In this document: in pieces, positions 18,074-24,789 of the stretch | Layout of the letters: each line of letters starts with the position of its first letter | How positions within the stretch are numbered: the first letter of the stretch is position 1 | From: Cellulomonas sp. PhB143 | Lineage (GTDB): Bacteria; Actinomycetota; Actinomycetes; Actinomycetales; Cellulomonadaceae | Assembly: GCF_003752595.1 (NCBI RefSeq) | Contig: NZ_RKIJ01000012.1 | Location: 1 to 64,000 of the forward strand | Reading direction: 5' to 3' | DNA: 64,000 nucleotides | Program-made: the position numbers and the translations under genes | The notes under the pieces: model-generated | What the model was told of the DNA's origin: nothing | Database searches by the model: none | What the model saw: only the letters and a program-made list of their open reading frames with translations

Positions 18074-19303
18074 GTGGCCATCGACACCCCTGACGCCCCG
18101 GCGACCGACCTGCACACCCCCCTGGACGAGCTGACCCTCGACGACCTCCGCCGTCGGACGTCCGTCAAGTGGCGCGCGTACGAGCCGGACGTGCTGCCCC
18201 TGTGGGTCGCCGAGATGGACGTGACGATCGCCCCGGCCGTGCAGGAGGCCATCGGCCGGGCCCTGCGCGACGGCGACACCGGCTACGACTTCGGCCCCGC
18301 CTACGCCGAGGCGCTCGCGGCCTTCGCCGAGCAGCGCTGGGGCTGGACCCTCGACGTCGCGCGCACCCGCGCGGTCGCCGACGTCATGGGCGGGCTCACC
18401 GACGTCATCAAGGTCCTCACCGGGCCGGGGGACGCCGTCGTCGTCTCCCCGCCCGTCTACCCGCCCTTCTACGGCTTCCCCGGGAACGAGGGCCGGCGCA
18501 TCGTCGAGGCCCCGCTCGCGGCCGACGGCCGGATCGATCCCGCCACCCTGGAGGCCGCCTTCGCGAGCGCGACCGGCGCCGGGGTGTTCGGGCGCGGCTC
18601 GGGCGCCGGCCGGCGCGCCGTCTACCTGCTGTGCAACCCGCACAACCCGACCGGCGTCGCGCACACTCCGGCGGAGCTGGAGGGCGTCCTCGCGCTCGCG
18701 GCCCGCTACGGCGTGCGGGTGGTCTCGGACGAGATCCACGCCCCGGTCGGCGGCCACCTCGGCACCGACGGCCCCCGGTACACGCCGCTGCTCACCGTCC
18801 CGGGCGCGGACGACGCGTTCGCCGTCCTCTCCGCGTCCAAGGCCTGGAACCTCGCGGGGCTCCGGACGGCCGTGGTCGTCGGCGGCCCGGGCGCGGCCGC
18901 GGACCTCGCGCGCATCCCGGAGGAGGCGAACCACGGCGTCTCGCACCTCGCCGTCATCGCGCACGCCGCGGCCCTGCGCGACGGCGTCGGCTGGCTCGAC
19001 TCGACGCTCGCCGGCATCGCGCGGAACAAGGCCCTCTTCGGCGACCTCGTCGCCCGGCACCTGCCCGACGCCCGGTACGCGCCCGCGGAGGCCACGTACC
19101 TTGGCTGGCTCGACTGCCGGGGGATGCCCGACGACGTCTCGCGCGCCCCGGCGCGCTTCTTCCACGACCGGGCACGGGTGGCCGTCAACGAGGGCGCGGG
19201 GTTCGGCACGGGCGGCGCCGGGTTCGTGCGGGTCAACCTCGCGACGTCCCCGGCGATCCTCACCGAGGCGGTCGAGCGCATGGCGGGAGCCCTGGCCCGC
19301 TAA
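18074..19303 (+). CDS. MalY/PatB-like PLP-dependent C-S lyase (class I/II aminotransferase fold)
   Basis: 409 residues. The N-terminus RRTSVKWRAYEPDVLPLWVAEMD is the hallmark of the MalY/PatB branch (cystathionine beta-lyase, not true aminotransferases). CNPHNPTGVAH and SDEIHAPV bind the PLP ring, and Lys in SASKAWNLAGLR forms the Schiff base. The enzyme cleaves cystathionine or cysteine conjugates to a thiol, pyruvate and ammonia. A sulfur role fits the cystine-type transporter 3.6 kb downstream, though they are not an operon. Confidence 0.93.
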   Translation: MAIDTPDAPATDLHTPLDELTLDDLRRRTSVKWRAYEPDVLPLWVAEMDVTIAPAVQEAIGRALRDGDTGYDFGPAYAEALAAFAEQRWGWTLDVARTRAVADVMGGLTDVIKVLTGPGDAVVVSPPVYPPFYGFPGNEGRRIVEAPLAADGRIDPATLEAAFASATGAGVFGRGSGAGRRAVYLLCNPHNPTGVAHTPAELEGVLALAARYGVRVVSDEIHAPVGGHLGTDGPRYTPLLTVPGADDAFAVLSASKAWNLAGLRTAVVVGGPGAAADLARIPEEANHGVSHLAVIAHAAALRDGVGWLDSTLAGIARNKALFGDLVARHLPDARYAPAEATYLGWLDCRGMPDDVSRAPARFFHDRARVAVNEGAGFGTGGAGFVRVNLATSPAILTEAVERMAGALAR

Positions 19304-22592: not shown

Positions 22593-22598
22593 TACCCT
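22593..22598 (+). promoter_or_regulatory. Putative -10 element of the leader-symporter transcript
   Basis: TACCCT; transcription from about 22605 would place the CTGA repeat and the leader peptide in the 5' UTR. No convincing -35 is seen. Confidence 0.35.
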
Positions 22599-22620
22599 CG
22601 GCGAGCACCACGCACCAGCA

Positions 22621-22648
22621 CTGACTGACTGACTGACTGACTGACTGA
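22621..22648. repeat. Tetranucleotide repeat (CTGA)7
   Basis: Seven perfect tandem copies of CTGA just before the leader peptide's ribosome binding site. TGA occurs in every frame, so the tract cannot be coding. Confidence 0.95.
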
Positions 22649-22660
22649 CAGGGAGTCCTC

Positions 22661-22674
22661 CACGTGATCACGTG
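22661..22674. promoter_or_regulatory. Perfect palindrome over the leader start codon
   Basis: CACGTGATCACGTG is perfectly self-complementary and contains the leader's GTG start. It could be a protein-binding site or could hide the start codon in a hairpin. Confidence 0.35.
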
Positions 22675-22735
22675 GCACCTGACCGAACGCCGCGCCGTCG
22701 ACCTGCACCGGGTCGCCAGCGCGATGTGTCGCTGA
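22664..22735 (+). CDS. Cysteine-type regulatory leader peptide (23 aa)
   Basis: GTG start with GGGAG 8 nt upstream. The peptide ends RRAVDLHRVASAMCR followed by TGA. It matches the pattern of short actinobacterial leader peptides with RR-x-VDL-x-R-x-S/A-S-A-x-C-R endings that precede sulfur assimilation genes. Translation of the penultimate Cys codon is expected to sense Cys-tRNA and to control the downstream gene by attenuation or translational coupling. The next gene is a DAACS symporter 218 bp downstream. A GCGCGTC/GACGCGC hairpin follows at about 22747-22763. Confidence 0.75.
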   Translation: MITWHLTERRAVDLHRVASAMCR

Positions 22736-22815
22736 CCCCTGCTCCCGCGCGTCGCTGACGCGCCGGTGCCGCGCTGCGCGCTCCTCGTCCCTGAGCTGCG
22801 CCCGCCCCGGCACCC

Positions 22816-22927
22816 GACCTGTCAGACCCTCGCCCCGCCATAGCGGGGCCCACGTCTGACAGGTCCCCTCCTCCCCGACCTGTCAGACCCTCGCCCCGCC
22901 CTGGCGGGGCTGAGGTCTGACAAGGTC
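22816..22927. promoter_or_regulatory. Two tandem palindromes between leader and symporter
   Basis: Copy 1 (22816-22865) and copy 2 (22877-22927) both begin GACCTGTCAGACCCTCGCCC. Each folds on itself through GACCTGTCAGAC/GTCTGACAGGTC (copy 2 has one bulge) plus an inner GCCCCG/CGGGGC stem. They could be attenuator or terminator hairpins, or a duplicated operator. There is no U tract. Confidence 0.65.
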
Positions 22928-22953
22928 CGCACGCACTCTCGAAAGGTTGCGCC

Positions 22954-24507
22954 GTGCCCTCCACGCACAGCTCCGTCCCCGCCACGCCGCCCAGCACAGC
23001 GCCCGCCGACACCGCAGCGCCCGACGACGTCGCCGCGCCCCCGCGTCGGCGTCGCCCCCGCTGGCTGCGGCTCCCGTCCTTCTCGGTCCAGATTGTCCTG
23101 GGCCTCGTCCTCGGCATCCTGCTGGGCTGGCTCGCGCTCTCGATGGGCCCCGTCGACGCGGGCACGGACGCCGAGTCGCCCAACTGGCTGACGACCACGC
23201 TCGACACCATCGGCAGCTCGTTCGTCACCCTGCTCAAGGCGGTCGTCCCACCGCTCGTGTTCACCGCCATCGTCGCGTCGATCGCGAACCTGCGGAAGGT
23301 CACGAACGCGGCGCGGCTCGCCGGCCAGACCCTCCTGTGGTTCGCCATCACGGCGCTGATCTCGGTGACCGTGGGCATCGGCCTCGGGCTCCTGTTCCAG
23401 CCGGGCAACAACTCCTCGCTCAGCCCCGACCAGGGCTCCGCGCCCGACGGTGGCGGCACCTGGATGGACTTCCTCGACGGCCTGATCCCGGGCAACTTCC
23501 TGGGCATCGGCGCGGGCACCGAGCTGCAGACGGGCACGGACGGCGCCACCACCGGCGCGACCACGTCGATCTCCTTCAACGTGCTGCAGATCGTCGTCGT
23601 CGCGCTCGTCGTGGGCATCGCGGCACTGAAGGTCGGGCGCAAGGCCGACCCGTTCGTCGACCTGAACCGCTCGGCGCTCGCCGTGATCCAGACGGTGCTG
23701 TGGTGGATCATCCGCCTCGCGCCGCTGGGCACGCTGGGCCTCATCGGCAACGCGATCGCCACGTACGGCTGGGACCTGCTGGCGCCGCTCGCGACCTTCG
23801 CGCTCGCGATCTACACCGGCCTGTTCGTCGTCCTGTTCGTGGTCTACCCGCTGGTCCTGCGCTCGAACGGCCTGAAGGTCATGAGCTACTTCCGCGGCGC
23901 GTGGCCGGCGATCCAGCTCGCGTTCGTCTCCCGGTCCTCGATCGGCACCCTGCCCGTGACGCAGCGCGTCGTGGAGCGCAACCTCGGCGTCCCGCGCGAG
24001 TACGCGTCGTTCGCGGTGCCGCTCGCCTCGACGACCAAGATGGACGGCTGCGCCTCGATCTACCCGGCGATCTCGGCGATCTTCGTCGCGCAGATCTTCG
24101 ACATCCACCTGACGATCACCGACTACCTGCTCATCGCGTTCGTCTCCGTCGTCGGCTCGGCCGCGACCGCCGGGCTCACGGGCGCGCTCGTCATGCTGAC
24201 GCTGACCCTGTCGACGCTGGGTCTGCCGCTCGCGGGCGTCGGGCTGCTCATCGCGATCGACCCGATCCTCGACATGGGCCGCACCGCGGTGAACGTCGCG
24301 GGCCAGGCGCTCGTCCCGACAGTCGTCGCCAAGCGCGAGGGGATCATCGACCTCGAGCAGTACGAGTCCTCCAGCACGGAGGACCTGTTCAGCGACGACG
24401 AGGTCGAGGACGACGGCGTCGCGGCGGATCAGGACGCCGTCGCCGACGAGACAGGCGGCCGGACGCCGTCGGGCGCCCGGGAGCGGGAGCTCGAGCCGGC
24501 GCGCTGA
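22954..24507 (+). CDS. DAACS-family amino acid/dicarboxylate:cation symporter, possible cystine importer
   Basis: 517 residues. A polar Pro/Arg-rich N-terminus of about 45 residues precedes eight membrane helices and two re-entrant loops of the glutamate-transporter (DAACS) fold. Serine-rich SRSSIGTLPVT (loop 1), STTKMDGCASIYP (TM7 region) and IDPILDMGRTAVNVAG (TM8 substrate site) are visible. An acidic tail follows. The family includes C4-dicarboxylate, glutamate and L-cystine (TcyP) importers. The Cys-type leader peptide upstream favours cystine or another sulfur substrate; this is inference. The GTG start has GAAAGG upstream. Confidence 0.9.
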   Translation: MPSTHSSVPATPPSTAPADTAAPDDVAAPPRRRRPRWLRLPSFSVQIVLGLVLGILLGWLALSMGPVDAGTDAESPNWLTTTLDTIGSSFVTLLKAVVPPLVFTAIVASIANLRKVTNAARLAGQTLLWFAITALISVTVGIGLGLLFQPGNNSSLSPDQGSAPDGGGTWMDFLDGLIPGNFLGIGAGTELQTGTDGATTGATTSISFNVLQIVVVALVVGIAALKVGRKADPFVDLNRSALAVIQTVLWWIIRLAPLGTLGLIGNAIATYGWDLLAPLATFALAIYTGLFVVLFVVYPLVLRSNGLKVMSYFRGAWPAIQLAFVSRSSIGTLPVTQRVVERNLGVPREYASFAVPLASTTKMDGCASIYPAISAIFVAQIFDIHLTITDYLLIAFVSVVGSAATAGLTGALVMLTLTLSTLGLPLAGVGLLIAIDPILDMGRTAVNVAGQALVPTVVAKREGIIDLEQYESSSTEDLFSDDEVEDDGVAADQDAVADETGGRTPSGARERELEPAR

Positions 24508-24527: not shown

Positions 24528-24768
<241 letters not shown>

Positions 24769-24789
24769 CGGGGGCCACGGCCGACCGGC

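Follow-up and report, generated by a model that had tools for sequence, protein, structure and literature searches.

A putative cysteine-sensing leader peptide upstream of a DAACS symporter gene in Cellulomonas: conservation, control codon and possible regulation through Rho

Leader peptides with Cys codons near their stop codon have been described in Mycobacterium, P. acnes and B. longum, where they precede cys operons and cbs, carry runs of Cys and lack a conserved terminator; for such actinobacterial cys leaders without terminators, Rho has been proposed (Seliverstov 2005, PMC1262725). The mycobacterial poly-Cys leaders, which reportedly respond to cysteine (Canestrari et al. 2020) and are represented by the NCBIfam models NF042933 (Ms5788A) and NF042936 (Ms4527A), have their Cys runs beside the stop, belong to sulfur targets and are translated leaderless. 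A further model, NF042934 (putative leader peptide), describes a short ORF with the core RRxVDLxRxxSAxC before a sulfur-linked gene. In the alphaproteobacterial order Rhodobacterales, uORFC-8-2 before cysS is a Cys-codon uORF attenuator with tandem Cys, predominantly UGC codons, and an intrinsic terminator with a U-run (PMC8632094).

Here, we discuss a short ORF in front of a symporter gene in a 64,000-nt stretch of DNA (the window; Cellulomonas sp. PhB143, GCF_003752595.1, NZ_RKIJ01000012.1, positions 1-64,000, forward strand) [Table 1]. Comparative sequence data make it likely that a cysteine-sensing leader of the NF042934 type controls this DAACS symporter within a sulfur/cysteine regulon, with Rho as the most probable means.

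Table 1. Features of the leader-symporter region, in window coordinates.
Feature	Position	Strand	Basis
Possible -10 element TACCCT (TANNNT type)	22593-22598	+	Resemblance to consensus only
(ACTG)x7 tetranucleotide repeat, presumed leader 5' UTR	22620-22647	+	Sequence
Shine-Dalgarno of leader, GGGAG, 8 nt before start	22651-22655	+	Sequence
Leader peptide ORF, MITWHLTERRAVDLHRVASAMCR then stop, NF042934 member	22664-22735	+	Profile match, conservation before orthologous symporters
Control Cys codon TGT (UGU)	22727-22729	+	Codon counts across leader family
Spacer between leader and gene, rich in C and poor in G (C 48%, G 28%); candidate region for Rho loading	22736-22940	+	Composition
Hairpin 1, first copy of dispersed palindromic repeat	22816-22865	.	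Sequence, BLAST
Hairpin 2, second copy of dispersed palindromic repeat	22877-22927	.	Sequence, BLAST
Shine-Dalgarno of symporter, AAAGG	22942-22946	+	Sequence
Symporter of the DAACS (SDF) family, predicted to import cystine or a different cysteine source	22954-24507	+	PF00375 E 6e-98

The leader and its relation to described leaders

The ORF starts with GTG, encodes 23 amino acids ending in RVASAMCR and stops at TGA; its only Cys codon, a UGU, is the penultimate sense codon. The initial annotation had read it as a 23-codon frame with a proper ribosome binding site and this same C-terminus, a reading confirmed by the sequence and by the match to NF042934 (35 bits, E 7.6e-9; curated cut-off 27 bits). 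A search of the whole genome returned the window leader as the sole NF042934 match above cut-off. Its scores against NF042933 (32.4 bits, cut-off of 45) and NF042936 (18.3 bits) lie under the respective cut-offs. As a peptide, the window leader is indistinguishable from the NF042934 family, with which it has the core and the place before a putatively sulfur-linked gene in common; a DAACS symporter is, however, not among the targets named in the description of the model.

The likeness to the mycobacterial poly-Cys leaders extends to the Cys beside the stop, the sulfur targets of its family at the class level and a similar core. The window leader differs from them in that it has one Cys where they have runs, in that a Shine-Dalgarno sequence and a presumed 5' UTR precede it whereas they are translated leaderless, and in that its target is a transporter. 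Hence it is not of the leaderless poly-Cys type, and poly-Cys ends were found only in one genus (g20) and in a MAG. With the leaders of PMC1262725 it shares the Cys near the stop, the lack of a conserved terminator and the suggested role of Rho, but neither their Cys runs nor their cys and cbs targets. The proposed function resembles that of uORFC-8-2, which differs in its tandem Cys, its UGC preference, its terminator and its host lineage.

Two features around the ORF are not shared with the relatives. The (ACTG)x7 repeat, situated between the presumed promoter and the leader ribosome binding site, is a possible slippage site; it was not found at the equivalent place in the relatives G001-G003. 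A palindrome at the start codon, CCACGTGATCACGTGG, is present in the window and had been regarded as part of an attenuator; it is absent from the leaders of relatives, and we rejected it as a functional element. An Rfam search of the region gave only a chance match to a microRNA family (22.4 bits; gathering score 82).

Conservation of the leader and of its control codon

Absence of the leader before orthologous symporters, which the initial annotation had named as refuting its reading, is not what the comparison shows. Among 120 genomes of the same taxonomic family as the window genome, 43 carry the symporter, and a Cys-containing leader precedes it in 43/43. In 38 of these carriers it is an NF042934 match on the same strand, at most 360 bp upstream of the symporter; in G078 the leader VSPWNLTERRTVDLHLVASALCRR was recognized by inspection. 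The remaining four carriers, all of genus g20, have longer leaders with an expanded Cys part, ending in TCCLPCCC, TCCLPCCCC, TGCCRTCC and MGCCRTWC before the stop. Such derived poly-Cys leaders before the symporter (L021, L166, L167, L168 and L053) are those of one genus and an Actinomycetales MAG. Moreover, codon-position entropy in 28 distinct family leaders is 0.36, 0.39 and 0.74 bits at positions 1, 2 and 3, respectively, and this concentration of variation at third positions indicates that the peptide is under selection.

In a set of named genomes, leaders precede symporter homologues in Sediminihabitans, Cellulomonas, Luteimicrobium, Cellulosimicrobium, Actinotalea, Georgenia, Blastococcus, Geodermatophilus, Jiangella, Nocardioides and Nocardiopsis, while the reverse strand upstream of the homologues in this set gave no match; the same arrangement occurs in three class-level genomes (L202, L228 and L252). 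No leader was found upstream of Arthrobacter, Devosia and Agrobacterium homologues. Poly-Cys ORFs before the Arthrobacter and Devosia homologues that lack a leader show no excess (10 versus 21 on the reverse strand), and two loci within this search set, L053 and L109, do carry leaders. None was found before two Cellulomonas homologues (L041 and L043) either; here the leader is lost and a palindrome-like TACAACGTTGNAA site lies upstream in its place.

The control Cys can be defined as the residue ten positions past the V of VDL. In 133 distinct leaders, drawn from the family, the named-genome set, the order and the class, two of which have the codon at a shifted position, the control codon is TGT in 129, TGA in three and TGG in one, and TGC in none; in the family leaders of the NF042934 type it is TGT in every one. 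At their remaining Cys positions these leaders have TGC 110 times and TGT 27 times (Fisher p about 1e-48 for control versus other Cys codons, a value in which independence is overstated because the sequences are related), and in the symporter genes TGC outnumbers TGT by 34 to 1. The base following the control codon is C or T in 123/126 leaders. That the preferred synonym is missing in many families can hardly be accounted for without some constraint on the codon. Being specific to one position, the UGU could reflect a constraint at the level of the RNA rather than of decoding. This lock on UGU is the least expected part of the finding, and the literature covered, which excludes the most relevant paper (Canestrari 2020), gives no earlier report of it. 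Tentatively, and at somewhat less than an even chance, it may mark a single-codon cysteine sensor, acting through slow wobble reading of UGU or through an overlapping RNA element, of a Rho-controlled regulon that includes a hitherto unassigned cystine-type symporter subfamily.

In four symporter leaders (L025, L056, L058 and L060) the control position is occupied by TGA or TGG, which means that the Cys codon is dispensable there or that the leader is decaying. Together with the second leader of L193, they keep the UG of the codon and never show UGC. That these four retain the core without the Cys codon, and that the VDL/RxxS core is more conserved than stalling at a Cys codon would require, would fit a microprotein or arrest peptide, in which the sequence RRxVDLxRxxSA is sensed rather than the supply of Cys-tRNA. 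We consider this improbable, given that the poly-Cys derivatives lose most of the core while retaining and multiplying Cys, and that the targets of the leaders are sulfur genes.

A short ORF that arose by chance, with an unremarkable glutamate or C4-dicarboxylate symporter behind it, would agree with the best NCBIfam models of the symporter, DctA and GltP, each of which scores far under its cut-off. The conservation in 43/43 family carriers already refutes this explanation, and the unique match in the genome and the UGU lock also stand against it; its probability is practically nil.

The symporter and the other leader targets

The symporter is the only PF00375 protein encoded in the genome. 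An AAAGG-type site close before its start recurs in relatives. The initial annotation had taken it for a member of the transporter family that includes the L-cystine importer TcyP. It has 29.5% identity to E. coli TcyP (YdjN), with which it shares the DAACS/SDF family, and 29.6% to GltP. A maximum-likelihood tree places it in a clade (98/98) apart from TcyP (100/99) and from GltP/DctA (99/99). The identity and the separate clade rule out a TcyP orthologue, so that the relationship is a distant one. What stands is the resemblance in TM7 and TM8, the substrate-binding helices: set against GltP, DctA and SstT, both proteins have GCAxxYPA in TM7, which is one residue longer, and they share SRSS in HP1 and a proline and DMGRT in TM8. 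Within TM7, TKMDG in the symporter replaces GQNG of TcyP, and HP2 differs too. The leader and these TcyP-like signatures, taken together, suggest as the likeliest substrate a source of cysteine, for which cystine is a plausible candidate. Directly past the stop codon of the symporter gene, positions 24530-24775 of the window consist of about 245 bp in which near-pure runs of G give way to runs of C; the stretch resembles an artefact of assembly or sequencing, or otherwise an extreme homopolymer palindrome.

The genes found behind related leaders bear on the same question. At the class level, NF042934-type leaders precede sulfurtransferases, sulfite/nitrite reductase-like proteins, APS kinase and DUF4395-like proteins, as well as LLM oxidoreductase, substrate-binding proteins and a ThiS/MoaD-like small protein (assigned by reading of the sequence; no NCBIfam match). 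Within the family, the targets besides the symporter are an NMT1-type ABC importer, DUF4395 and 2OG-Fe oxygenases. In some family genomes (L169-L172 and L175) the oxygenase behind the NF042934 leader is isopenicillin-N-synthase-like, which suggests a sulfur-related role for it. The conservation of the leader before orthologous symporters and the sulfur genes among its other targets make the cysteine/sulfur-linked reading put forward in the initial annotation well supported at the level of sequence.

The same does not hold for a MalY/PatB-like C-S lyase, 3.6 kb upstream, that had been thought to be linked. The gene is present (18074-19303) and its assignment was confirmed at the subfamily level (TIGR04350, E 1.5e-72, under its cut-off). 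As a general partner it was rejected: among 80 homologous loci it lies in the neighbourhood only in Sediminihabitans and Oerskovia (2/80).

The leader-gene spacer and a candidate mechanism

Two tandem hairpins in the spacer, at 22816-22927, had been proposed as a compact attenuator. They give the window spacer very high stability (z -12.3), which would suit an intrinsic-terminator attenuator in which the leader controls the hairpins as a terminator. The hairpins are, however, copies of a dispersed repeat for which BLAST returned 29 matches in the genome; it was not found at the equivalent place in relatives, whose spacers have no common hairpin, and no U-tract follows the hairpins. The conserved hairpin with a U-tract between leader and gene that characterizes trp-type attenuators is thus missing here, and we regard this alternative as very improbable and reject the tandem hairpins as a conserved attenuator. 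At most, they are a lineage-specific addition. The repeat, GACCTGTCAGACC...GGTCTGACAGGTC with an inner GC hairpin, occurs at about 19 other sites in the window genome (G000). Four of six other copies examined lie between convergent genes, so the repeat may stop transcription, which speaks for a terminator function of some kind; possibly, it is a bidirectional terminator or a REP-like element.

What the spacers do have in common is their composition. In the family they contain about 48% C and 29% G, with a skew of -0.24 +/- 0.04 (39 loci), compared with -0.01 +/- 0.12 for 77 control 5' regions; upstream of homologues without a leader (34 in number) it is -0.06. Class-level spacers before other genes behave as the family spacers do (skew -0.23, negative in 52/53). 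C-rich, G-poor RNA is the composition of Rho loading sites, and a rho gene is present in the genome. The spacer composition, the presence of Rho and the earlier proposal for actinobacterial cys leaders (PMC1262725) lead us to favour Rho-dependent attenuation over its main rival, translational attenuation.

In translational attenuation, stalling at the UGU would refold the spacer and free the ribosome binding site of the symporter without Rho. Such a mechanism is stated for cysteine genes of M. smegmatis in a 2026 paper that cites Canestrari 2020, and the spacers are somewhat more stable than shuffled sequences (mean z -2.1; below -2 in 14/39). However, the spacers showed no conserved pairing able to mask the AAAGG site. 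In genus g8 the ends of the spacer are kept while its middle is poorly conserved, and no convincing covariation of pairing was seen there, as judged by eye. Nor would translational attenuation need a uniform excess of C over G. We therefore consider this alternative unlikely, although it deserves more weight than the other rivals discussed above.

For the favoured Rho-dependent mechanism, the following model can be suggested. When Cys-tRNA is plentiful, the ribosome would complete the leader and depart at the UGA beside the control codon. Its departure would expose the C-rich, G-poor spacer, and Rho would most likely end transcription before the symporter gene. If, by contrast, Cys-tRNA is scarce, the ribosome would stall at the single UGU and cover the start of the spacer, such that transcription could run on and the importer would be made. 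The model builds on what the sequences show, namely the ORF with its conservation, the UGU lock, the composition of the spacer and the sulfur context of the leader family; to these it adds, by inference, the stalling upon Cys-tRNA shortage, termination by Rho and, as the substrate, a source of cysteine that is probably cystine.

The symporter adds a new target to leader regulons of a type already known. The UGU lock pinpoints the control codon, and a one-base synonymous change could probe single-codon sensing. Collectively, the leader-controlled sulfur regulon is now extended to a DAACS symporter, and a subfamily annotated as dicarboxylate/amino acid:cation symporter is given a probable role, import of a cysteine source under the control of cysteine.
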